Origin: Flavihumibacter cheonanensis
GTDB taxonomy: Bacteria > Bacteroidota > Bacteroidia > Chitinophagales > Chitinophagaceae
Length of the DNA stretch: 64,000 nt
Direction of reading: 5' to 3'
Assembly (NCBI RefSeq): GCF_022352215.1
Contig: NZ_JAKRWF010000001.1
Span: forward strand, 1,550,001 to 1,614,000
In this document: piece by piece, positions 11,305 through 22,092 of the stretch
How positions within the stretch are numbered: position 1 is the first letter of the stretch
How the letters are laid out: each line of letters starts with the position of its first letter
Notes under the pieces: model-generated
What the model was told of the DNA's origin: nothing
What the model saw: only the letters and a program-made list of their open reading frames with translations
Database searches by the model: none
Made by a program: the position numbers and the translations under genes

Positions 11305-12977
11305 GGATTATTTGATTTGGAAGAAAAATACCTTTCCTTCAGGCGTTTGTCTTCCTCATAAATATCGGGAAAAAACCGAATATCTCCATCGGCACCTGTG
11401 GCCGTTATATAGCGAATATAGATTGGTACCTGCGGGAAATCACTGATGGTTTTTTTTTCCTGGCGCTGTATCAACGCCCTGATTGTATCCGGATGATACC
11501 GTATTTCGTTGTTCCGAACCAGGAAATGCGACAAATCTTCCCATTTCTGGACCCTCACGCAACCGTGGCTAAGCGCCCGGTTGTCCTTTGAGAACAAACC
11601 TCTTGCATTGGTATCGTGCAGATATACGCTGTACTTGTTCCGGAAATTGAATTTCATTACACCCAAACTGTTATCATCACCTTGTCGCTGGCGCAGCAAA
11701 TAGGGGAAACTGTTTTTATTTACTTTATTCCAGTCAATTGTTTCAGGTGCAATTACACTGTCGTAGCGGTCCACTACCATAAGGTTTTCCTTGGCCAGGT
11801 ATTGGATATCCTTCCTGATTTTAGGCAACATTTCTTTAAAAATGATGCTGTAAGGTACTGTCCACTGTGGATAGGTGATAAAATTCGTAATGGAACTATT
11901 TAATACAGGTGTTGGCGTTTTAGGGGTCCCAATTATAATTTTTGACTGAAGTGCAACGGTGTCGTAATCCATCACTTCCAGCTGATAAGCCGGCAGGTTC
12001 ACCCACAAATAGGTTTCCGGCATAGTGTCAGGCAACTGCCGGTAACGATCCAGGTTAAGCGCTATTGTTTTGAAATAATCCCAATCGGTAGTATTCAGAC
12101 TGGCTACCGTTAGCTGGGCAACAAACCCTGTTGTAACAATGCCCTTGGATGCCTGGTATTTTTTAACCGCTTTGGCAAAGACAAGCGAGTCATCTCCGGC
12201 TACCCAGCTACTGTCCAGGAATCCCATTGCCTTTAATTTTTTACCTACCTGCTGAATAAATGCCATGGAATCAGAAGCAGGGTACTGAATGGATTCAACA
12301 GGTTGAAAATTTGCTTTCGCAAGGAAAGCAGCCAGTCCTTTTTTCAGATCCTGGTACCCTTTATGCTTTGGCTCCATCCGGTTCAACATCGTTTGTACCT
12401 GCCCGTTACGATGGAGGGCTCCCAGCAGATTCAGCTTCTCTTCATTCGAAAATGCCGAATCTTTTCGAATGGTTATACTGTCGCGGTTCAGATGCCCATA
12501 TTTCAGATGATGAGCCATTTTCCAGCAGGCATCTGTCAACAACAGATCGGCCCTTGCCCAAAGTGCTGCATTTTTCCTGCTAACAGAATCCAGGATTATT
12601 TTATTCCGGATTTCCAGTAAAAGGGAATGATGATAATCAGTTGGAAACAGTCCATAGGATTTTGCCTGGCTTATCATAAAGAAGAGACTGTCTCCAGCCG
12701 GCTTCCAGAGATCAGCTTCACTCCAGACCGGATGATATCCGTTTTTTTCATAAAACTCCTGCATTAGGGAATATTCCGTCAGCAGTACACTATCCTTAAG
12801 ATATCCATCCCGGTTCGTCAGATAGCGAAGCAGTTCATGAATCTGTTCACTAACCACCATGGGCACTTCTTCCTTCTTATCCACCAAAACCACTTCCTCT
12901 GGTGCAGTAGAGCTGAAACAGCCGGTTAACGTACTGATTAAACAAACAATTCCAATGCAACGAAGTATATTTCTCAT
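11301..12977 (-). CDS. murein L,D-transpeptidase (YcbB-like)
   Basis: A 558-residue lipoprotein-like protein (LTGCF lipobox, Cys20). A large N-terminal helical region is followed by a peptidoglycan-binding-like segment (~250-300, FAKAVKKYQASKGIVTTG). The YkuD catalytic domain has LSHGCVRVQKWEDLSHF, containing the HGCVR nucleophilic Cys. This arrangement is that of YcbB/LdtD, which makes 3-3 cross-links between meso-DAP residues. It is the first gene of a pair with the RlpA-like gene (ATGA overlap), suggesting coordinated remodelling of the wall at the outer-membrane face. Confidence 0.92.
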   Translation of the reverse strand: MRNILRCIGIVCLISTLTGCFSSTAPEEVVLVDKKEEVPMVVSEQIHELLRYLTNRDGYLKDSVLLTEYSLMQEFYEKNGYHPVWSEADLWKPAGDSLFFMISQAKSYGLFPTDYHHSLLLEIRNKIILDSVSRKNAALWARADLLLTDACWKMAHHLKYGHLNRDSITIRKDSAFSNEEKLNLLGALHRNGQVQTMLNRMEPKHKGYQDLKKGLAAFLAKANFQPVESIQYPASDSMAFIQQVGKKLKAMGFLDSSWVAGDDSLVFAKAVKKYQASKGIVTTGFVAQLTVASLNTTDWDYFKTIALNLDRYRQLPDTMPETYLWVNLPAYQLEVMDYDTVALQSKIIIGTPKTPTPVLNSSITNFITYPQWTVPYSIIFKEMLPKIRKDIQYLAKENLMVVDRYDSVIAPETIDWNKVNKNSFPYLLRQRQGDDNSLGVMKFNFRNKYSVYLHDTNARGLFSKDNRALSHGCVRVQKWEDLSHFLVRNNEIRYHPDTIRALIQRQEKKTISDFPQVPIYIRYITATGADGDIRFFPDIYEEDKRLKERYFSSKSNNP

Positions 12978-13012
12978 ATTGACTGTTCTACCCTCATCCC
13001 TAAATATAATAT

Positions 13013-14008
13013 TTATGGGAGGACCCGGGAAATTTGGCCCGATTGAATCATCAGATCCGCCAATACAATAGCAGTTACTGCTTCCAAAACAACCGGCACG
13101 CGAAGCGCAATGCAGAGATCATGCCTTCCTTTCACAGAAAAAGTTTCCTGCTCACCGGTCTCCCAGTTTAGGGTCAGCTGTTCTTTTGGCGTGGAAGAAG
13201 TTGGCTTGATGGCTATCCTGAATACCAGTTCGTTTCCATTGGTGATACCTCCAACAATTCCGCCTGCATGATTGGTTCGGGTTTTACCGGTGGAATCCTC
13301 AATGGCATCGTTGTGCTGAACGCCAAACATCCGGGCCGCAGCAAATCCGGTTCCGAATTCTATCCCTCGTACGGCAGGTATGGCAAATACAGCATGACTG
13401 ATCAGGGATTCTACCGAATCAAAAAAGGGTTCGCCCATGCCAATGGGTAAACCACTAACCCTGCATTCAACTATTCCACCTATCGAATCCTTGGCATCAA
13501 TTGCTTTCTGCAGACCTTTCTCAAGGTCAGCTTCTCCCCCGATCTCAAGGATGGCTGCTGTTACAGAGATGGGATTCAGCATTTTTTTTGCTACCACTCC
13601 TGCCGCTACTAATCCCACTGTCAATCGGCCACTGAAATGCCCACCGCCCCGAAAATCTTCAAAGCCGCCGAATTTTTTATGGGCAACAAAATCAGCATGA
13701 CCAGGCCTTGGCACAGCACGCTGCTTTTCATAATCCCCCGAACGGGTATTTTTATTTTCAAACAAAATGGTCAGGGGTGCACCGGTTGCTCTTCCATTAA
13801 AAAGTCCGGTTTGAAAAAGGGGCAGGTCATCTTCCTTTCGGGGAGTGGTACCTTTTTGTGTGCCGCCTTTCCGGCGTTCGATATCAATATGAAAATCTTC
13901 CAGTGCAAGTGGCAGGCCAGATGGAACACCGTCAATGATCACACCTACCGCCGGACCATGAGATTCCCCTACTATGGATACCCGAAAATTACGTCCGAAT
14001 GAATTCAT
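13013..14008 (-). CDS. aroC: chorismate synthase
   Basis: 331 residues. FGRNFRVSIVGESHGPAVGVIIDGVPSG at the N-terminus and the flavin/substrate motifs RPGHADFVAHKKFGGFEDFRGGGHFSGR mark chorismate synthase, which converts EPSP to chorismate using reduced FMN. The protein is slightly shorter than many (about 350-360) but all conserved blocks are present. It is the last gene of the aromatic operon and overlaps the aroA stop by ATGA. Only 35 nt separate it from the L,D-transpeptidase gene downstream, with no obvious terminator, so some read-through is possible. Confidence 0.97.
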   Translation of the reverse strand: MNSFGRNFRVSIVGESHGPAVGVIIDGVPSGLPLALEDFHIDIERRKGGTQKGTTPRKEDDLPLFQTGLFNGRATGAPLTILFENKNTRSGDYEKQRAVPRPGHADFVAHKKFGGFEDFRGGGHFSGRLTVGLVAAGVVAKKMLNPISVTAAILEIGGEADLEKGLQKAIDAKDSIGGIVECRVSGLPIGMGEPFFDSVESLISHAVFAIPAVRGIEFGTGFAAARMFGVQHNDAIEDSTGKTRTNHAGGIVGGITNGNELVFRIAIKPTSSTPKEQLTLNWETGEQETFSVKGRHDLCIALRVPVVLEAVTAIVLADLMIQSGQISRVLP

Positions 14009-15279
14009 ACTTCTTGGTTTAGTTTGGCTCCCAGTGAACGTATATGTTCATAAAAATCGGGATAGGATTTATTGATGGCTTCCGCCTTTTCGATGGTTGT
14101 GCTGCCCGTGGCTTTTAAGGCTGCTACGGCACAGGCCATTGCAATGCGATGGTCATGATGGGAATGCACTTGTGCACCGGTAAGTCCTTGCCCTCCTTTA
14201 ATCAACATAAGATCGTCCTGCAATTCAATCGAAAGTCCCATTTTCCCAAATTCTTCCTGCAGGGTCAGGGCGCGATTGCTTTCCTTGTGCGTAAGCCTTC
14301 CAACCCCTTCAATTACTGTTGTGCCTTCACAATAGGCTGCCAGCGCAACAAGCGGAGGAAATAAATCCGGACAATCAGTTGCATTGAAATGAAAAGCCTT
14401 CATAGGCATCGGACGAACGGTGATTTGTTCGGATTCAATGCTAATGCCGGCACCACAACTCATCAGCGCCTGCAGGATAGCTTTATCCGCCTGGGTTGAA
14501 AAAACATCCAGTCCCGAAATAATTGTTTCACCCGCAATTGCTGCTGCTACTAATAAAAAAGCGCCACCACTCCAGTCGCCTTCTACTGTGTAAGTTCGGC
14601 TATCCGTTACTGTTGGGCGATTGCCGGTAAAATAAAAACTTTCATAATTGTTATTCTGCGGCACTTCCAAACCGAAATCTTCCATCACTTTGAGCGTGAG
14701 ATCGACATAGGGTTTACTTTTTAAATTCGTAACCGTAATGGTTACATCTTTAGCGCCAGCTGCTGCATAAGCCAGCAATATTCCGGTTAGAAATTGTGAA
14801 CTGAGTGATCCATCGATAGTAATATTACCGGGTTTAAGCGGGCCTTTGACAACCAATGGCAATTTACCTTGTCGCGATTGAACCGACACCTGCAATTGTG
14901 GTAATACTTCATCAAAAAAATCCATGGGACGTGTTACCAGGCTTCCCTCACCAGTGATGGTAATCGCTTCCTCATTTAATGCCACCAGCGGTGTAAACAT
15001 CCGGATACCCAACCCACTTTCACCGCAATGTACAGTGGTAGAGCGGGCATGGATACCCGAAGAACGAATGATCAGTTCACTATCTTTCTGTTCGATAGCC
15101 GCACCCAAAGCCTGGATCACACCCAGGGCAGCTTTGTCGTCGTTTGATTTTCCGGGATTGCGGATGATGCTGGTGCCACCGGCGGCAATCGCTGCCGCGC
15201 AGGCGCGCTGCATGGAGCTTTTGGAAGCTGGTGCCCAGATTTCACCCTTTATGGAAGAAGGTTCTACCGTAACTACCAT
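14005..15279 (-). CDS. aroA: 3-phosphoshikimate 1-carboxyvinyltransferase (EPSP synthase)
   Basis: 424 residues. The N-terminal phosphate-binding segment (ASKSSMQRACAAAIAAGG), the GLGIRMFTPL block (equivalent to the usual G-TA-RxxxxL) and the C-terminal DHRIAMACAVAAL are visible. The enzyme joins shikimate-3-phosphate and PEP. The gene overlaps aroC by ATGA and starts 9 nt after the aroB stop, deep in the operon. The conserved 'GNAGTA' loop reads CGESGLGIR here, a known type of variation that matters for glyphosate sensitivity in other EPSP synthases; no prediction is made. Confidence 0.95.
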   Translation of the reverse strand: MVVTVEPSSIKGEIWAPASKSSMQRACAAAIAAGGTSIIRNPGKSNDDKAALGVIQALGAAIEQKDSELIIRSSGIHARSTTVHCGESGLGIRMFTPLVALNEEAITITGEGSLVTRPMDFFDEVLPQLQVSVQSRQGKLPLVVKGPLKPGNITIDGSLSSQFLTGILLAYAAAGAKDVTITVTNLKSKPYVDLTLKVMEDFGLEVPQNNNYESFYFTGNRPTVTDSRTYTVEGDWSGGAFLLVAAAIAGETIISGLDVFSTQADKAILQALMSCGAGISIESEQITVRPMPMKAFHFNATDCPDLFPPLVALAAYCEGTTVIEGVGRLTHKESNRALTLQEEFGKMGLSIELQDDLMLIKGGQGLTGAQVHSHHDHRIAMACAVAALKATGSTTIEKAEAINKSYPDFYEHIRSLGAKLNQEV

Positions 15280-15288
15280 TATGCTGTA

Positions 15289-16308
15289 TTATATCTGTTC
15301 TATTAATTGTTTAACCTGCGCCAATGGAAGTGTATGAACAACTCCCTTTCCAATTTTTTGCAGCAGGATATAATGAAGATTGGAGCGATCTCTTTTTTTA
15401 TCGTGTTTCAATACATCAAAAACTTTGGTACGATCAAAATCGGCATAGGTGGGTAACCCGTACTGATCAATCACTTTCACCAATGCAGCCGCCTGCTTAA
15501 ATCCGAGTAATGCTTCTGATAAATGTGCCGCATAGGTCATACCAATCGAAACCGCCTGCCCGTGCGACAATTCATACTGATTCTCCAGGGCATGCCCTAG
15601 GGTATGTCCGAAATTCAGCAGTTTGCGGTCGCCCTGTTCGGTTTCGTCGAGCTGCACCACTTTTGTTTTTAACAGGGCATTTCTTCGAACCAGGGCAGCA
15701 AGGTCTGATTTCTTTTTCTGGAACCAGGCGGCATCGTGTTCCTTTAATTCGCGAAACATGGCTGCGTCCTTGATAGCTGCATGTTTGATGATCTCCGCAA
15801 ATCCGTTTTGCCATTCGGCCATCGGCAGGGTTTGAAGCAGACTGGTATCAAAAAAAAGAAAGGAAGGCTGACGGATAGTACCTACCAGGTTCTTGTAAAC
15901 TTCCACATCCACACCGTTTTTGCCACCGATAGAAGCATCCACCATGGCCAGCAGACTGGTTGGAATAAAACCGGTTCGGATCCCACGCATGTAAATCGCA
16001 CCCACATATCCTGCCAGGTCAGTTATTACTCCTCCTCCCAGGCCGATAAGGGTGGTTTTACGGTCGGCTTCCATCTCAATCAGCGAATCAATAACAGTAT
16101 CCGCTGTTTGCTGGATCTTGTATTCTTCACCCGCTTTAATAACAATGGTATTCCAGCCTTTCAACTTTGATTTACAAACTTCAAATACATGTTCATCGGT
16201 TAGGATGATACTATGTTTTTTATCGGCAACATTTTTCAGTTGGGACAAACTCGCACCAAAATAGTAATCGGTGATGGTCTGTCCAATGCGGATTTTTTTT
16301 ATTTCCAT
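15289..16308 (-). CDS. aroB: 3-dehydroquinate synthase
   Basis: 339 residues. The NAD-binding GLGGGVITDLAGYVGAIYMRGI, the LLAMVDASIGGKNGVD substrate block and the metal-binding NFGHTLGHALE are all present. The enzyme converts DAHP to 3-dehydroquinate. It sits 9 nt after the DAHPS-chorismate mutase gene and 9 nt before aroA, in the usual order for an operon. The family is typically 340-360 residues, so it is full length. Confidence 0.96.
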   Translation of the reverse strand: MEIKKIRIGQTITDYYFGASLSQLKNVADKKHSIILTDEHVFEVCKSKLKGWNTIVIKAGEEYKIQQTADTVIDSLIEMEADRKTTLIGLGGGVITDLAGYVGAIYMRGIRTGFIPTSLLAMVDASIGGKNGVDVEVYKNLVGTIRQPSFLFFDTSLLQTLPMAEWQNGFAEIIKHAAIKDAAMFRELKEHDAAWFQKKKSDLAALVRRNALLKTKVVQLDETEQGDRKLLNFGHTLGHALENQYELSHGQAVSIGMTYAAHLSEALLGFKQAAALVKVIDQYGLPTYADFDRTKVFDVLKHDKKRDRSNLHYILLQKIGKGVVHTLPLAQVKQLIEQI

Positions 16309-16317
16309 GCGCCCTGC

Positions 16318-17409
16318 TTAGCTGTTCATGATTTTGTTCTGGTGGTTGATGGATTCCATATGCACCGCATCAAAGTAACGGGTGATGAATTCCTTGCTCA
16401 AGCCCAGTTTATCGCCTTTCAGAAAAGCACGATCCAGGATTTCATTCCAGCGATTGGTTTGCAGGATGGTAATATTATTATTCTTTTTGTAGGTACCGAT
16501 TTGTTCAGCCACTTTCATACGTTGTCCCAGAATTTGCATCAGTTCATCATCGAGGTGATTGATCTGCTGGCGGAGTTTTTCAAGTGCCGCATGATATGCT
16601 TCAGAATCCACGTCTTCTCTTCTCCAGGTAATGCTGTCAAGCATTTCTGCGAGACGGGCGGGGGTTACCTGCTGCTTGGCATCACTCCAGGCATTATCAG
16701 GATCAATATGGCTTTCGATGATCATGCCGTCGTAATCAAGGTCAATAGCTTTCTGCATCACATCCAGCAGGATATCTCTTCTGCCGCAGATATGGGAAGG
16801 ATCATTGATCATCATCATTTCCGGGAAGCGGCGTTTCATTTCGATTGCCAGATGCCACATCGGTGCATTTCGGAATTCGGTATTTCCATATGAAGAGAAA
16901 CCGCGATGGATCAAACCAATCTGGTTGATACCGGCTTTCGCAACACGTTCAACCGCGCCGAGCCACAATTCCAGATCAGGGTTGATCGGGTTCTTGATGA
17001 GTACAGGCACATCCACTCCTTTAAGCGCATCAGCTACTTCCTGCACGCTAAAGGGGTTAACGGTAGTTCTTGCACCAATCCACAACACATCCACGTCGAA
17101 GTGCAGCGCGTCTTCCACTTGTTTGGCTGTAGCTACTTCCACTGCAACCGGCATCCCGGTGAGCTTTTTAGCCTGCTGTAACCAGGGTAGCCCTTTGGTA
17201 CCGATACCTTCAAAAGAACCCGGACGTGTACGTGGTTTCCAGATACCGGCTCTCATGATATCAACTTTACCGGTTTGTGCCAATTGCTGGGCAGTTTGTA
17301 ATACCTGCTCTTCGGTTTCTGCGCTGCAGGGACCCGCGATGATCAATGGGCGCTTGGCCCATGCTTCCTGTGTTACCTGTTTCATTGTTTTGTTGTCGGT
17401 TGCTTGCAT
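16318..17409 (-). CDS. bifunctional DAHP synthase / chorismate mutase (type II order)
   Basis: 363 residues. The N-terminal ~260 residues form a type I-beta (KDO8P-synthase-like) DAHP synthase: IAGPCSAE, RAGIWKPRTRPGSFEGIG, GARTTVNPF and LIKNPINPD. The C-terminal ~90 residues are an AroQ-type chorismate mutase (LEKLRQQINHLDDELMQILGQRMKVAEQIG). This C-terminal mutase arrangement is characteristic of Bacteroidota. It catalyses the first step of the shikimate pathway and the chorismate-to-prephenate branch. In related enzymes prephenate binding to the mutase domain inhibits DAHP synthase. The 87-nt gap upstream carries a purine-rich repeat. Confidence 0.95.
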   Translation of the reverse strand: MQATDNKTMKQVTQEAWAKRPLIIAGPCSAETEEQVLQTAQQLAQTGKVDIMRAGIWKPRTRPGSFEGIGTKGLPWLQQAKKLTGMPVAVEVATAKQVEDALHFDVDVLWIGARTTVNPFSVQEVADALKGVDVPVLIKNPINPDLELWLGAVERVAKAGINQIGLIHRGFSSYGNTEFRNAPMWHLAIEMKRRFPEMMMINDPSHICGRRDILLDVMQKAIDLDYDGMIIESHIDPDNAWSDAKQQVTPARLAEMLDSITWRREDVDSEAYHAALEKLRQQINHLDDELMQILGQRMKVAEQIGTYKKNNNITILQTNRWNEILDRAFLKGDKLGLSKEFITRYFDAVHMESINHQNKIMNS

Positions 17410-17448
17410 AAAATTACTGTATTTAAAAAGTTTACTATTTATTGTTTA

Positions 17449-17502
17449 ATTTCTCCATCTTCCATTCCTCCATCTTCCATTCTCACGTTTCACGTCTCAC
17501 TT
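17449..17502 (-). repeat. purine-rich intergenic repeat at the tyrA 3' end
   Basis: On the coding (minus) strand the stop codon TGA is part of GTGAGACGTGAAACGTGAGA, followed by repeats of the unit GGAAGATGGAGGAAT. A 25-bp block (17454-17478) is identical to 24892-24916 after the DUF6249 gene. The same stop-codon-proximal layout is seen at four gene ends in this window. Confidence 0.75.
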
Positions 17503-18345
17503 TATTATCCTGCTAATCCTGTTCGCATTCTCTATCAATTCCTGCAAATACGCATAGTTCTCTTTCTCCAGGCAGGCTTTGAATTTGCGTAGCTGTGTAA
17601 TATGTTCATTGAGCACATCGAGCACATTCTCGCGGTTTTGCATAAAGATAGGAACCCACATGGAGGGATTGGATTTAGCAAGGCGCACGGTACTCTCAAA
17701 ACCACCACTCGCCAGTTCAAAAATCGCCTGGTCTTCTCTTTCTTTCTCCAATACGGTATTGGCGAGCGCGAAGGAAGTAATATGGGAAATATGACTCACA
17801 TAGGCAGCATGCAGATCGTGATCATGTGCATTCATTTCCAGCAGGTGCATGCCAATTTTCTGAAAAGCATTTTTTACCCAGCTAACAGCATCCGCATCAC
17901 TTTCTGCGGCGTTGCACAATACGACAGCCTTATTTTCAAATGCATGTTTTACAGCGGCGGCAGGGCCGCTGTATTCCGTACCCCACATCGGATGTGAAGC
18001 TACATATCGCCCTCTACGGGGATGTTCTTTCACTGCATCAATCAATTGCCCCTTGGTAGATCCGGCATCCAGCACAATCTGATGGCTAACGCGGTCCAGC
18101 ACTTTGGGCAACAATCCTGTCATTTTATCAACGGGAATGCAGAGGATAACGACATCCGATTCTTCAATTGCCTGCTCCAGCGGCAACACTTCGTCCACCA
18201 ATCCCATTTCCAGCGCTTTTGCTGCGTGATCCGGATTGGCTTCCACACCAACAATACCGGCCGCCAGGCCTTTTTCATTTAACTGCAATGCCAGCGATCC
18301 GCCAATCAGCCCCACTCCAACTATTGCAATTCGTTTTCGTTCCAT
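17497..18345 (-). CDS. tyrA: prephenate dehydrogenase
   Basis: 282 residues. It has an N-terminal Rossmann fold (IAIVGVGLIGGSLALQL) and the TyrA active-site segments DAGSTKGQLIDA, SHPMWGTEYSGP and HDLHAAYVSHISHI. It oxidatively decarboxylates prephenate to 4-hydroxyphenylpyruvate, the tyrosine branch. It lacks an ACT domain, so allosteric tyrosine control through ACT is unlikely; control may come from the operon leader. The stop codon lies inside a purine-rich repeat, which might have altered the C-terminus. Confidence 0.94.
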   Translation of the reverse strand: MERKRIAIVGVGLIGGSLALQLNEKGLAAGIVGVEANPDHAAKALEMGLVDEVLPLEQAIEESDVVILCIPVDKMTGLLPKVLDRVSHQIVLDAGSTKGQLIDAVKEHPRRGRYVASHPMWGTEYSGPAAAVKHAFENKAVVLCNAAESDADAVSWVKNAFQKIGMHLLEMNAHDHDLHAAYVSHISHITSFALANTVLEKEREDQAIFELASGGFESTVRLAKSNPSMWVPIFMQNRENVLDVLNEHITQLRKFKACLEKENYAYLQELIENANRISRIIK

Positions 18346-18376
18346 GCTATTTTCAACTTTACTGTATGTTTTATTA

Positions 18377-18455
18377 GTCTCTCCTGTCTCCCGCCTCCTT
18401 TGTCTCCCTTATCCTTTGTTTCCCTTCTCCATTCTCCTTTATCCTTTCTTCCATC
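18377..18455 (-). repeat. purine-rich intergenic repeat at the aminotransferase 3' end
   Basis: The coding strand reads GGATGGAAGAAAGGATAAAG around the TAA stop and continues with GGAGAATGGAGAAGGG, GGGAGACAAAGGAGG and GGGAGACAGGAGAG. Composition and units match the repeat after the S41 protease gene (24650-24720). It fills the whole 93-nt gap to tyrA, so it is transcribed inside the operon. Confidence 0.7.
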
Positions 18456-19620
18456 CTCCGGAATTTTTCTGTATCCGCTCCATCGCTTCTATTAGTTTCT
18501 CCTCCGGACTGCAAAGACTCACCCGAATAAATCCATTGCCTGCGTTACCGAAAATGCCACCCGGTGTAATGAACACATTCGCGCCATAGAGGATTGCATC
18601 ACTCATTTCAAAACCATCTTTGTACTGTTCAGGAATTTTTGCCCAAACGAACATGCCTACCTGTTCCGGGTTATACGTTGCGTTCAATTCATTCAGTAAT
18701 TCAAATACCAGTTTCCTGCGCCTGCGGTAAACATCATTTACTGATGCATACCAATCAGCTCCCAGTTGCAAGGCTTTTGCAGCAGCTAGCTGAGCAGGCA
18801 AAAACATACCACTGTCCATGTTGCTTTTGAAACGGATCACTTCATCAATACGATCCTTTGCTCCTGCCAGCATACCGATTCTCCAGCCCGCCATATTCTG
18901 ACTTTTACTTAGTGAGTTCAATTCCACTACTACTTCCATAGCACCAGGTACAGCCAGCAGACTAACGGGCTGCTCATTCAGAATAAAACTATAGGGATTA
19001 TCGTGGCAGATCAGGATCTGATTTTTTTTCGCAAACTTTATCAATCGGGCATAAAACTCAGCTGATGGTACCTGCCCGGTTGGCATATGCGGATAATTCA
19101 CCCACATCAGTTTCACCTTACTCAGATCCGTTTTATCCAGTGCATCCAAATCCGGCTCCCAGTTTAAGGATTCCACCAGTTCATATGATACTGGTTCTCC
19201 CCCTGCCAGTTTCACGGCACTGCTATAAGTTGGGTAACCCGGGTTGGGAATTAATGCCTGGTCGCCCGTATTCAGATAGGTCATGCAGATATGCATGATT
19301 CCCTCTTTACTTCCGATCAACGGCAGAATTTCGGTATCCGGATTCAGCTCCACCCCATACCAGGTAGCATACCAGTTGGCCATTGCCTTGCGTAATACCG
19401 GTGATCCCTTATAGCTCTGGTAAGCATGCACATTGGGTTTTGCAGCTTCTTCCTGCAGGGTTTTTATCACATCGGGATGTGGCGGTAAATCCGGACTTCC
19501 AATACCCAAATTGATAATCGCCTTGCCCTCTTTATTAAGTGCATCAATCTCACGAAGCTTCTGAGAAAAATAATATTCTCCAATGCCATTCAGTCGGTCT
19601 GCGGTTTTCAGTTGCATCAT
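18439..19620 (-). CDS. PLP-dependent class I/II aminotransferase (aromatic operon)
   Basis: 393 residues of the fold-type I aminotransferase family: NLGIGSPDLPPHPDV, YQSYKGSPVLRKAMANWY, NPGYPTYSSAVKLAGG, HDNPYSFI, and SLSKSQNMAGWRIG with the Schiff-base Lys. It is related to LL-DAP and aspartate aminotransferases. Its place between pheA and tyrA suggests that it transaminates phenylpyruvate and 4-hydroxyphenylpyruvate, completing Phe and Tyr synthesis; this is inferred from context. Its ATGA overlap with pheA indicates coupling. The repeat at its 3' end supplies the last codons and the stop. Confidence 0.9.
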   Translation of the reverse strand: MMQLKTADRLNGIGEYYFSQKLREIDALNKEGKAIINLGIGSPDLPPHPDVIKTLQEEAAKPNVHAYQSYKGSPVLRKAMANWYATWYGVELNPDTEILPLIGSKEGIMHICMTYLNTGDQALIPNPGYPTYSSAVKLAGGEPVSYELVESLNWEPDLDALDKTDLSKVKLMWVNYPHMPTGQVPSAEFYARLIKFAKKNQILICHDNPYSFILNEQPVSLLAVPGAMEVVVELNSLSKSQNMAGWRIGMLAGAKDRIDEVIRFKSNMDSGMFLPAQLAAAKALQLGADWYASVNDVYRRRRKLVFELLNELNATYNPEQVGMFVWAKIPEQYKDGFEMSDAILYGANVFITPGGIFGNAGNGFIRVSLCSPEEKLIEAMERIQKNSGGWKKG

Positions 19621-20444
19621 TGCTTACCATTTTTATAGATTCCATAAACCTGCAAACTCACAGTCAGCGGTTCAATTTCTTTTATTACTCCCTGGAACTG
19701 TTCCAGGCTGTCGAATTCCATATCTGCATGGAAACTGTATTGCCAGTCGCTACCGGGAATCGGAAAACTTTGCAACTTGCTCAAATTGATTCCTCCTTCC
19801 GCAATTCTGGTCAATACTTTCGCAAGGCTTCCCCTGGAGTGATCGGTATGAAAATTAACCGAAGCTTTGTTGGCATCCGGAATCTCCTGCGCCATATCCT
19901 TTCTTTGAAGAATGAGAAAGCGGGTATAGTTGTTTTTCATCGTGTGGATATTCGGAGCCAGCACTTCGAGATCAAACAGATCTGCCGCCAGTTTACTGGC
20001 AATAGCAGCGGCATGTTTATTGTGCTTCTGATGAATGTGTTTGGCACTAAGGGCAGTATCCTCCGTTTCCACCAGTTTCCAGTTGAACTTCTCAAGGTAA
20101 TCAATGCATTGCAGAATGGCCATCGGATGCGAATGCACTTCCCGGATATCTTCCAGTTTTACACCTGGATTTACCAGTAGGTTCTGTTTAATCTGGAGAT
20201 ACACTTCGCCTACTACCTGCAGGTTACTTTTCTGTAATAAATTATAGTTGGGAAGTATGCTGCCAGCGATGGAATTCTCAATTGCCATTACACCGCCTTC
20301 GCTTTCTTTTTTACTGGAAGCAATTTTTACTACCTCGCGGAAGGTATCGCAGGGAATGACTTCAACATCCTTGCCGAAAAATTGCTGGGCTGCCACCTGG
20401 TGGAAGCTTCCTTCATAACCCTGTATGGATACTCTTGTTGCCAT
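19617..20444 (-). CDS. pheA: prephenate dehydratase
   Basis: About 275 residues from the ATG at 20444. The frame can be extended to a TTG at 20453, but that codon lies in the terminator stem. The catalytic domain has VSIQGYEGSFHQVAA, GVMAIENSIAGSI, SHPMAILQC and the NNYTRFLIL motif with the essential Thr-Arg-Phe. The ACT domain (~190-275) has SLAKVLTRIAEGGINLSKLQSFPIPG, like the Phe-binding GALxxxLxxFxxxxINLTxIESRP block. It converts prephenate to phenylpyruvate and is probably feedback-inhibited by Phe. It is the first structural gene of the operon. Its start codon directly follows the U-tract of the attenuator terminator and has no Shine-Dalgarno sequence. Confidence 0.95.
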   Translation of the reverse strand: MATRVSIQGYEGSFHQVAAQQFFGKDVEVIPCDTFREVVKIASSKKESEGGVMAIENSIAGSILPNYNLLQKSNLQVVGEVYLQIKQNLLVNPGVKLEDIREVHSHPMAILQCIDYLEKFNWKLVETEDTALSAKHIHQKHNKHAAAIASKLAADLFDLEVLAPNIHTMKNNYTRFLILQRKDMAQEIPDANKASVNFHTDHSRGSLAKVLTRIAEGGINLSKLQSFPIPGSDWQYSFHADMEFDSLEQFQGVIKEIEPLTVSLQVYGIYKNGKQ

Positions 20445-20482
20445 AAAAAACAAGAGTCCCGGCCTTTCGCCGGGACTCTTTA
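20445..20482 (-). terminator. attenuator terminator before pheA
   Basis: AAGAGTCCCGGC and its exact complement (20452-20463 and 20469-20480) form a 12-bp GC-rich stem with a 5-nt loop. On the minus strand it is followed by G and six T residues, and then at once by the pheA ATG. The 5' arm can instead pair with leader nucleotides 20534-20521 (see findings), so it is an alternative structure rather than a constitutive stop. Confidence 0.9.
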
Positions 20483-20500
20483 TGTTTAGTTTTAGTGATC

Positions 20501-20596
20501 TTAATTCGTTGATCTAACACAAAGCATCGCCGGCCTTCTGCCTGTAAAAAAGTAGAAGTAAAAATAAAATCGGCCAAATGCATTTGCTGTGATCAT
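20501..20596 (-). CDS. Phe/Tyr-rich leader peptide of the aromatic operon
   Basis: A 31-codon open frame with ATG start and TAA stop, too short for routine gene calling. Residues 10-17 read FYFYFYFF. In total there are six Phe (7, 10, 12, 14, 16, 17) and three Tyr (11, 13, 15). It ends 19 nt before the terminator stem upstream of pheA. This is the layout of amino acid biosynthetic leader peptides such as E. coli PheL and TrpL: scarce charged tRNA stalls the ribosome on the aromatic codons and permits the antiterminator. The mixed Phe and Tyr codons fit an operon containing both branches. No Shine-Dalgarno sequence is seen; the message may be nearly leaderless. Confidence 0.88.
   Translation of the reverse strand: MITANAFGRFYFYFYFFTGRRPAMLCVRSTN
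20521..20534 (-). promoter_or_regulatory. antiterminator half of the pheA attenuator
   Basis: GCCGGCGATGCTTT on the minus strand can pair with AAAGAGTCCCGGC, the whole 5' arm of the terminator. Five G-C pairs, a one-base bulge, two pairs, a G-U, one mismatch and four more pairs can form. It begins about 12 nt after the last Phe codon (20548-20546), where a ribosome stalled there would just leave it exposed. Confidence 0.75.
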
Positions 20597-20600
20597 GAAG

Positions 20601-20633
20601 TAAAAATATACAATGATTGAATACAACAAAAAA
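20601..20633 (-). promoter_or_regulatory. putative promoter of the aromatic operon
   Basis: On the minus strand TTTTTTG (20633-20627) is followed after 16 nt by TATATTTTTA, resembling the -33 TTTG and -7 TAnnTTTG boxes of the Bacteroidota primary sigma factor with shorter spacing than usual. The leader ATG lies only a few bases downstream, so the transcript would have almost no 5' UTR. The box match is imperfect. Confidence 0.4.
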
Positions 20634-20665
20634 GTTTTTTCCTTACGAATGTTAGTTAAACCGCC

Positions 20666-21229
20666 TCATTGCAGGCGTTTCATCTGTTGTTCATCCATTT
20701 TCCGGAAAAGGTGAAAAGGTTTAAACGTACGCCAGTTATCCAGCTCCACCAGCTCTATTATCCGTTGTAATTTAGATTTCCGGAAATCATACTGTGTTTG
20801 TTCCGGCATATTTAATAAGACAGCCCATCCGTTTTCATCCACCATCTCCTCGTACCACTCTTCATAGTAATCGCGGTCTCCGGAATGATAGTTCAACACA
20901 TTTTCAGCAATGAAGATGAACTTATGAATGCCTGCTTCCTGGAACTTGTCAATCACCTCCCTTTTAAGTTGCATGATGTCATTCTCAATGGCATCATTCC
21001 ATTCACCCAGCAGTTCAATGATAGCGTACTGTTCTTCGTAATCTGCCAGGATGACTTTCAGATAGAGGGTTCTAGATCCAAACTCATCCCACTGGGGATG
21101 GATATAGAAATTATAAATGGTTTGGGAATATTCAAACTCAGAATAAACGCGCCCGTAAAAAGGTGATCGCTCATCTTCTTCGCTCACATAGATATGACGC
21201 CAGTTGTAAAATGGTTCAATTTCGTGCAC
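20666..21229 (-). CDS. conserved hypothetical protein, acidic, 187 aa
   Basis: I do not recognise a named family. The protein is soluble, with no signal peptide or membrane segment, rich in Glu, Asp, Tyr and Trp in the first ~140 residues (FYNWRHIYVSEEDERSPFYG, YYEEWYEEMVDENGW) and basic at the C-terminus (HLFRKMDEQQMKRLQ). Alternating strands and helices (LYLKVILADYEEQYAIIELLGEW, DKFQEAGIHKFIFIAENVLNYH) suggest a compact alpha/beta domain. It lies 32 nt after murQ and is probably co-transcribed with the recycling genes. Coding potential is convincing: no credible overlapping frame, ATG start, long frame. Confidence 0.75.
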   Translation of the reverse strand: MHEIEPFYNWRHIYVSEEDERSPFYGRVYSEFEYSQTIYNFYIHPQWDEFGSRTLYLKVILADYEEQYAIIELLGEWNDAIENDIMQLKREVIDKFQEAGIHKFIFIAENVLNYHSGDRDYYEEWYEEMVDENGWAVLLNMPEQTQYDFRKSKLQRIIELVELDNWRTFKPFHLFRKMDEQQMKRLQ

Positions 21230-21261
21230 ACCGGCAAGTTACTAAGTTCTCCCAAATATGC

Positions 21262-22092
21262 TTAAGCCGGATTGGCTGCTCTCCAGGCGTCTACTGCTTT
21301 TTTAACACTACCGTATTTTAGCAGTAACCCTTTTGCCGCTTCGTAATCGTCCAGTTTCAGTTGCTGCAAAACCATATGGGTACCACGGTCTACCAGCTTT
21401 TCATTACTGAGCTGCATGTTCACCATTTTATTGTCTTCCACCCTTCCGATTTGTATCATGACAGTAGTGGAAATCATATTGAGCACCAGTTTTTGTGCGG
21501 TTCCACTTTTCATGCGGGTTGATCCGGTAACGAATTCGGGGCCAACCACTACTTCAATTGGGAAATCTGCTTCCTGGCTTACAGGAGAGTTGGGATTGCA
21601 GGAAATGGAGCCGGTGAGTATACCATTTTCGCGGCATTTTTTTAAAGCACCGATTACATAAGGAGTGGTACCACTTGCAGCAATTCCAACCACCACGTCC
21701 TTTTCACTGACAAAATGTTTTTTAAGGTCTTCCCAGCCCTGCTGCAAACTGTCTTCTGCATTTTCCACCGCTTTCTGAATGGCTTCCTCACCACCGGCAA
21801 TCAATCCGATTACGAGCCCATACGGCATGCCATATGTTGGCGGAATTTCACTGGCATCCAGAATTCCCAAACGCCCGCTGGTACCTGCTCCCAGATAGAA
21901 TAAACGTCCGCCTGCAAGCATATTATCTGTAATAGCGGAAACCAGTTTTTCAATCTGAGGGATTGCTTTGGCAACGGCCAACGGTACTTCCTGGTCTTCT
22001 CTGTTTATATTCTGCAAAATCTCCGACACCTCCATTTTTTCCAGGTGACGATACCGGCTTTCCTGCTCGGTTACTTTAACAAATTCGGGCAT
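21262..22092 (-). CDS. murQ: N-acetylmuramic acid 6-phosphate etherase
   Basis: 276 residues with the SIS-domain signature of MurQ: RLFYLGAGTSGRLGILDASEIPPT, AGGEEAIQKAVENAEDS, VVGIAASGTTPYVIGAL, GSISCNPNSPVS and TRMKSGTAQKLVLNMIST. It cleaves the lactyl ether of MurNAc-6-phosphate to give GlcNAc-6-phosphate and D-lactate during peptidoglycan recycling. The C-terminal UBA-like segment (DYEAAKGLLLKYGSVKKAVDAW) is kept. It lies 21 nt after a BadF-type kinase gene, which could feed it its substrate or handle GlcNAc. Confidence 0.95.
   Translation of the reverse strand: MPEFVKVTEQESRYRHLEKMEVSEILQNINREDQEVPLAVAKAIPQIEKLVSAITDNMLAGGRLFYLGAGTSGRLGILDASEIPPTYGMPYGLVIGLIAGGEEAIQKAVENAEDSLQQGWEDLKKHFVSEKDVVVGIAASGTTPYVIGALKKCRENGILTGSISCNPNSPVSQEADFPIEVVVGPEFVTGSTRMKSGTAQKLVLNMISTTVMIQIGRVEDNKMVNMQLSNEKLVDRGTHMVLQQLKLDDYEAAKGLLLKYGSVKKAVDAWRAANPA

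Follow-up and report, generated by a model that had tools for sequence, protein, structure and literature searches.

What controls the transcription of the aromatic amino acid genes headed by pheA in Flavihumibacter cheonanensis, and which nutrient signal would the control region read? Attenuators of enterobacterial amino acid operons such as pheL, trpL and hisL are ribosome-mediated, the first kind being represented in Rfam by Phe_leader (RF01859), and an initial annotation of the 64,000-nt stretch of DNA analysed here (the window) proposed that pheA is governed by the same logic. This proposal is supported by the leader, both stems, their spacing and their covariation, and we consider it very probable on sequence and modelling grounds that the region acts by ribosome-mediated transcription attenuation, reading the supplies of Phe and Tyr together.

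Genes of the presumed operon

Seven genes on the minus strand constitute the presumed operon. The first, pheA (prephenate dehydratase, 19617..20444), matched NF008865 at E 3.6e-58 and 196.9 bits, under the model cut-off of 219, and overlaps by 4 nt a PLP aminotransferase gene (18439..19620) that matched several aminotransferase models, all under their cut-offs. These are followed by tyrA (prephenate dehydrogenase, 17497..18345; NF006307 above cut-off) and by a fusion of DAHP synthase and chorismate mutase (DAHPS-CM, 16318..17409), in which models of the former covered approximately residues 6-261 and models of the latter approximately 276-361, both under cut-offs. The genes aroB (3-dehydroquinate synthase, 15289..16308; TIGR01357), aroA (EPSP synthase, 14005..15279; TIGR01356) and aroC (chorismate synthase, 13013..14008; TIGR00033), each above its model cut-off, complete the series, with aroC as the last member. 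By these assignments, the genes behind the attenuator are predicted to make the amino acids that it would sense.

Intergenic distances from pheA to aroC are -4, 93, 87, 9, 9 and -4 nt. The two long gaps, 18346-18438 before tyrA and 17410-17496 before DAHPS-CM, are purine-rich with repeat-like units, while the other junctions are tight. Beyond aroC, 35 nt (12978-13012) lead to a 558-aa ORF that overlaps a second ORF on the same strand, and which we take to resemble an L,D-transpeptidase, the overlapping ORF being presumably RlpA-like. None of the four positive gaps between pheA and aroC contains a TAnnTTTG box, and of the three minus-strand sites in 12900-21300 that resemble terminators, the one in the pheA leader alone has more than 5 pairs. 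Counted by order and strand, not contiguity, pheA, the aminotransferase gene, tyrA and DAHPS-CM are conserved in 73 of 80 named relatives (the best 80 of 196); in 47 of these 80 the block extends to aroC. Contig ends or the limits of the fetched flank truncate several of the loci. Based on gene order, the lack of a further strong terminator and the lack of a TAnnTTTG box in the gaps, we infer that the attenuator controls all seven genes, and the transcript may run past aroC.

A leader peptide rich in Phe and Tyr

A 31-codon frame with an unbroken FYFYFYFF run had been described ahead of pheA, and direct reading of the minus strand from 20596 to 20501 confirmed it. The ORF (20501..20596) is ATG-initiated, encodes MITANAFGRFYFYFYFFTGRRPAMLCVRSTN and ends in TAA, and its candidate regulatory codons, five Phe and three Tyr, occupy 20546..20569, giving the putative leader an uninterrupted run of end-product codons. 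Folding of the surrounding region (20440-20660) gave z = -4.1, and none of 200 dinucleotide shuffles was as good.

We do not argue from the rarity of the aromatic run, which was dropped as evidence because a reversed control pattern occurred more often genome-wide (7 matches) than runs of at least 7 consecutive F/Y codons (5 matches, at 3 separate locations, in a genome of 4.84 Mb). The feature that exceeds chance is the location of the run and its conservation, not the run itself. Outside the leader, such runs of at least 7 F/Y triplets occur at G000:C110:1713090-1713110 and G000:C186:277106-277129.

Conservation was assessed by searching, to about 500 nt from pheA, for ATG-initiated ORFs 6-45 codons long whose aromatic segment scored 5 or more. 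Loci of the family Chitinophagaceae comprised 30 + 40 places out of matches in 168 of 244 genomes, along with the 80 best of 196 in named contigs. For class loci, 396 genomes were searched at E <= 1e-20; 277 gave no pheA match, and of the 119 that did, every genome from outside the family (108) was used. A first set of 210 loci was reduced to 190 nonredundant ones by dropping 20 that were duplicates in the last 150 nt or had <200 nt upstream, and 48 class loci entered later without a duplicate check. The search for aromatic-rich frames in other Chitinophagaceae, suggested in the initial annotation, found such a leader at 125 of 130 nonredundant pheA loci, compared with 4 of 1900 shuffled upstream regions (430 nt long, real regions reaching about 530 nt). 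Outside the family it was present in 51 of 60 loci of the first set and, once the 48 later class loci were added, in 81 of 108 loci and 18 of 27 families; all these loci are related by descent, and the counts do not represent numbers of independent events.

The five Chitinophagaceae loci failing the leader test are L084, L194, L198, L201 and L208; the leader of L201 has a GTG start, and that of L084 begins at TTG or an in-frame GTG. Families without a leader ORF in our sample are f4 (1 locus), f13 (8), f22 (2), f25 (1), f26 (1), f54 (1), f62 (2), f66 (4) and f70 (1), and f16 has one in only 4 of 9 loci. The pattern in f13, f22, f62, f66 and f16 looks like loss of the leader or another mode of regulation.

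Of 176 leaders, 18 were set aside because they had no acceptable terminator or spacing; all of the remaining 158 peptides contained at least two Phe and at least two Tyr residues (means 5.4 and 3.7), in agreement with the earlier suggestion that a single leader senses both amino acids; Trp is present in 41. In an alignment of 50 sequences, length differences inside the aromatic run are, by eye, multiples of three. Judged by these sequence features, the predicted Phe/Tyr attenuator is widely conserved in Bacteroidota.

These data also bear on a rival account of the region, namely an ordinary intrinsic terminator belonging to the upstream gene, accompanied by a chance ORF. It would fit the 187-aa gene on the same strand that ends at 20666, as well as the finding that F/Y codon runs alone are not rare genome-wide. 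However, leader, antiterminator and spacing are conserved into 18 of the 27 other families and covary, and only 31 of the 80 named relatives (the best 80 of 196), some of them truncated, yielded a homologue of the 187-aa gene, rendering this account hardly credible.

The terminator and its distance from pheA

Between the leader and the first structural gene lies a predicted intrinsic terminator, with its 5' arm AAGAGTCCCGGC at 20480-20469 and its 3' arm, segment 4 (GCCGGGACTCTT, 20452..20463), delineated by sequence, hairpin and covariation analyses on the minus strand. The earlier description of a 12-bp stem with six U residues ending at the pheA ATG holds for both arms, for the T6 tract (20445..20450) and for its junction with the ATG (20444), but a single G (20451) separates the stem, which has a 5-nt loop, from the U-tract. 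A hairpin of <= -8 kcal/mol directly 5' of a T-run, which we used as the rule for accepting a terminator, was found in 159 of 176 leaders (<= -12 kcal/mol in 144) and in none of 176 mononucleotide-shuffled regions. Three congeners (L003, L017 and L037) have T4 only after the stem and were rejected by this rule. In an alignment of the window with 49 Chitinophagaceae loci, picked from 67 references, 88.4% of terminator cells are paired and 35 cells are changed on both sides, compared with 12.1 after shuffling, a value reached by 0 of 500 shuffles.

The initial annotation regarded both the fusion of U-tract and start codon and the missing Shine-Dalgarno sequence as unusual. Neither holds: the T-run starts within 15 nt of the pheA start in 51 of 158 loci, making the fusion a common variant, and the absence of Shine-Dalgarno sequences is reported as the norm in Bacteroidetes (PMC6847099). 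Such proximity could nevertheless point to translational or combined control, in which a hairpin at the pheA ATG would block ribosome access, the antiterminator would free the start and termination would be secondary. In the window species the stem and U-tract lie immediately before the ATG, and initiation in Flavobacterium johnsoniae is described as tuned by mRNA structure (PMC6847099). Against this, the T-run lies >15 nt upstream of the pheA start in 107 of 158 loci and >60 nt upstream in 42, with hairpin and T-run kept. Since they are kept despite the varied distance, termination is the common feature, and control exerted mainly at the pheA start appears unlikely.

The antiterminator

The competing structure is predicted to form between segment 2 (20514..20534), which lies within the leader ORF, and segment 3 (20469..20489), the 20480-20469 portion of which doubles as the terminator 5' arm; both minus-strand segments were defined by duplex energy, shuffle and swap controls, and covariation. 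The helix joining 20534-20514 with 20489-20469 has a computed energy of -22.8 kcal/mol and is the predicted fold of the window RNA before segment 4 exists. Previously, a shorter stretch, GCCGGCGATGCTTT (20534-20521), had been proposed to pair with the entire 5' arm. It does pair (-13.2 kcal/mol, better than 98% of shuffles), but with interior mismatches, and the helix runs past it to 20514 and 20489.

Across the 158 loci, where segment 2 was sought after the last aromatic codon and before the terminator, its pairing with the terminator 5' arm has a median energy of -14.2 kcal/mol compared with -5.7 for shuffled segment 2. At 141 loci the pairing beats at least 95% of the locus's own shuffles, while 17 fail. 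A locus's own segment 2 outperforms the median taken from other families at 143 of 158 loci, and where the arm lacks CCCGG it outperforms the median of CCCGG-type segments in 45 of 55.

In the 50-sequence alignment the antiterminator comprises about 18 pairs between the RPGMLLL codons and the conserved AACATAAAG linker plus terminator arm, with 83.1% of cells paired and slid versions reaching at most 51.9%. The covariation test that had been suggested for both stems bears them out, the antiterminator having 42 cells changed on both sides compared with 18.9 after shuffling (0/500). This count, the percentage paired and the covariation score all exceed 500 of 500 shuffles; the other two of the five covariation measures fall short, with 10 pairs changed on both sides versus 7.3 (32/500) and 24 further pair types versus 22.2 (117/500). 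RNAalifold, applied to the same alignment, found the terminator alone (8 pairs), the outcome expected of mutually exclusive stems, and we therefore counted the antiterminator as a named structure. Computed energies and comparative data together indicate that the predicted antiterminator and terminator exclude one another. A textbook-type 1:2 protector hairpin is weakly supported here, as it beats 95% of shuffles in 49 of 158 loci.

Ribosome position and the choice between structures

We posit that a ribosome would start the leader while RNA polymerase is still transcribing the leader region. With charged tRNA-Phe and tRNA-Tyr in ample supply, it would pass FYFYFYFF and segment 2 and reach the stop codon, leaving the segment 3 arm free when segment 4 appears; the terminator would then form and transcription would stop just 5' of pheA. 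If Phe or Tyr were short, the ribosome would stall in the aromatic run, segment 2, 11 nt further on, would be left free to pair with segment 3, and polymerase would continue into pheA and the six following genes. Leader translation, coupling of transcription to translation and termination itself are thus presumed in this scheme.

The distances are compatible with it. Segment 2 had been placed about 12 nt past the last Phe codon; the close spacing stands, with the first paired base at 11 nt. Among the 158 loci segment 2 starts at a median of 9 nt past the last aromatic codon (10-90%: 7-12), and the leader stop precedes the terminator 5' arm by a median of 24 nt (20 nt in the window). With a ribosome footprint on RNA of the generally known size, as assumed in our stall model, this spacing would leave segment 2 free of the stalled ribosome. 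Modelled before segment 4 exists, pairing of the arm reaches at least 0.5 in 156 of 158 loci for a ribosome halted on the last aromatic codon and in 1 of 158 for one at the stop (0.90 and 0.07 in the window), a contrast that is partly built in, as a ribosome at the stop leaves less free RNA. At equilibrium the terminator is favoured (median 0.94) and the antiterminator wins in 18 of 158 loci. In most loci, therefore, the choice must fall during transcription.

Alternative stems before amino acid operons are also found in T-boxes, and the region could in principle be a ligand riboswitch or a T-box sensing uncharged tRNA, with the ORF incidental. The window, however, yielded no match at gathering score among 4227 Rfam families, T-box and riboswitch families included, and the features conserved are the aromatic reading frame and alternative stems. 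We regard such a sensor as very improbable. A search of 251 bases at permissive E-values returned sub-gathering matches only. Among the models, Phe_leader aligned with the leader over its full length (1-125) at 19.4 bits and E 0.52, below the gathering score of 55 bits, and by score the leader is not a member of that family.

Promoter position

A weak putative promoter of the Bacteroidota type (20597..20630, minus strand) consists of TTTG (20630-20627) and either TATATTTT or TATTTTTA, with a predicted 5' UTR of 2 or 0 nt. Each of these -7 candidates has one mismatch to TAnnTTTG, a box reported to span -12 to -5 in Flavobacterium psychrophilum (PMC9723704) and F. johnsoniae (PMC6847099). The TTTG is missing in congeners L034, L037 and L003, and in the ten loci of the window's genus that were queried the promoter score was never above 2. 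Among the Chitinophagaceae leaders, 84 of 125 have a box scoring at least 3, and the predicted 5' UTR is 0-6 nt in 74 of 125.

As a control, 2 of 877 long ORFs in the named loci had a box that would give a predicted UTR of 0-8 nt to any ATG within their first 30 codons, this being a looser rerun of a first, stricter control (0 of 879). A scored box anywhere within 70 nt before the first ATG occurred in only 9 of 877 control ORFs; the control is therefore lenient, demonstrating rarity of the box and not an unusual position. Longer predicted UTRs are frequent in other families; in f39, 9 of 10 leaders have one of 13-18 nt. Based on box position, most scored Chitinophagaceae leaders would be nearly leaderless, the box being weak in the window's genus. 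Published transcript maps report 5.5% leaderless transcripts in F. psychrophilum (PMC9723704), 5' UTRs of <10 nt in about 3.7% of cases in Bacteroides thetaiotaomicron (PMC7366714) and >10 nt in 87% of predicted transcripts in F. johnsoniae (PMC6847099).

His and Trp leaders in the same genome

The genome encoding the Phe/Tyr leader also contains putative His (MKRNSNIHHHHVLLPAR) and Trp (MTKNIQTIQWWWHTNSSGVL) leaders. The former lies 5' of a hisG match (1386631-1387173, minus strand of G000:C110; locus L225), is followed by a hairpin and T-run before hisG, and is preceded by a TATTTTTG box ending 8 nt before the ATG. The latter lies 5' of a trpE-like match (1380273-1381625, minus strand of G000:C110; locus L235), likewise with hairpin and T-run, and its CATATTTG box, with one mismatch, ends 7 nt before the ATG. 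Of 17 hisG loci, 15 have a His leader, with a predicted UTR of 3-4 nt in 11; of the 16 trpE loci scanned (24 fetched), 15 have a Trp leader, with a predicted UTR of 2-3 nt and a one-mismatch box in 12. Both sets are drawn nearly entirely from the window's genus. Upstream of ilvD no convincing Ile, Leu or Val leader was seen in a scan in which, unlike the hisG and trpE scans, minus-strand loci were not reoriented.

Taken as a whole, it seems to us evenly balanced, true or not, that the Chitinophagaceae Phe/Tyr attenuator, along with the his and trp attenuators of the window's genus, combines a sigma-A -7 box 4-10 nt before the leader ATG with near-leaderless translation, that tight coupling is the working principle of these operons, and that a joint Phe/Tyr sensor dates from early Bacteroidia.

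Relation to known attenuators

With pheL, trpL and hisL of enterobacteria the system described here shares a leader ORF of cognate codons, an antiterminator located partly in the ORF, a terminator exclusive with it and a biosynthetic operon downstream. It differs in its mixed Phe and Tyr codons, a weak 1:2 hairpin, a larger operon including aroB, aroA and aroC and, probably, in being near-leaderless in many relatives. For trpL of Sinorhizobium meliloti, the leader-peptide mRNA is reported to be leaderless, beginning at its own ATG (PMC7298713). A leader mRNA starting at or near its own ATG would be common to both; the S. meliloti case is alphaproteobacterial, concerns Trp and has a reported 5' end (PMC7298713), whereas here the 5' end is predicted from promoter position.

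Leader-peptide regulation has precedents closer to the window as well. In 2005, a putative attenuator drawn from a database of predicted attenuators was tabulated before the B. thetaiotaomicron genes pheA>hisHb>aroAIbeta-aroQ>tyrA (PMC1173090, Table 7), the same position before a homologous operon in the same phylum; the passages on this prediction describe no leader peptide. Some B. thetaiotaomicron 5' UTRs are also stated to contain short ORFs reminiscent of leader peptides (PMC7366714). In 2021, a structured element 5' of pheA was reported for F. psychrophilum, kept in other Flavobacteriaceae genera and without an Rfam hit, together with 'strong clues' for leader-peptide attenuation at amino acid operons (PMC9723704). 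The passages on that element (PMC9723704) give neither the peptide, the sensed amino acids nor the stems, which are defined here and followed in 19 families including Chitinophagaceae. The authors of a 2010 study stated that they knew of no leader-peptide system beyond Proteobacteria and Actinobacteria before adding Firmicutes (PMC2965389). Titles and abstract openings in the open-licence PMC literature yielded no description of a Phe/Tyr leader peptide in Chitinophagaceae. This type of attenuation, and an attenuator or element upstream of pheA in this phylum, are hence already known; what is new is the depth of conservation, the joint reading of Phe and Tyr, and the promoter position.

Implications for Bacteroidota

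For annotation, the analysis places a putative 31-codon gene, together with a predicted regulatory RNA roughly 150 nt long, inside an apparently empty intergenic region. In the literature surveyed, leader-peptide attenuation in Bacteroidota receives brief mentions only, and no Rfam 15 family matches the version in the window. The element described here, defined by conserved sequence and covarying structure, is a probable main regulator of aromatic amino acid synthesis in Bacteroidota. If the near-leaderless reading is true, the first ribosome, initiating without Shine-Dalgarno pairing, would load as the RNA emerges and follow the polymerase. As an attenuator of this kind works only with a ribosome close behind RNA polymerase, it would provide a handle on transcription-translation coupling in bacteria that initiate without Shine-Dalgarno pairing.
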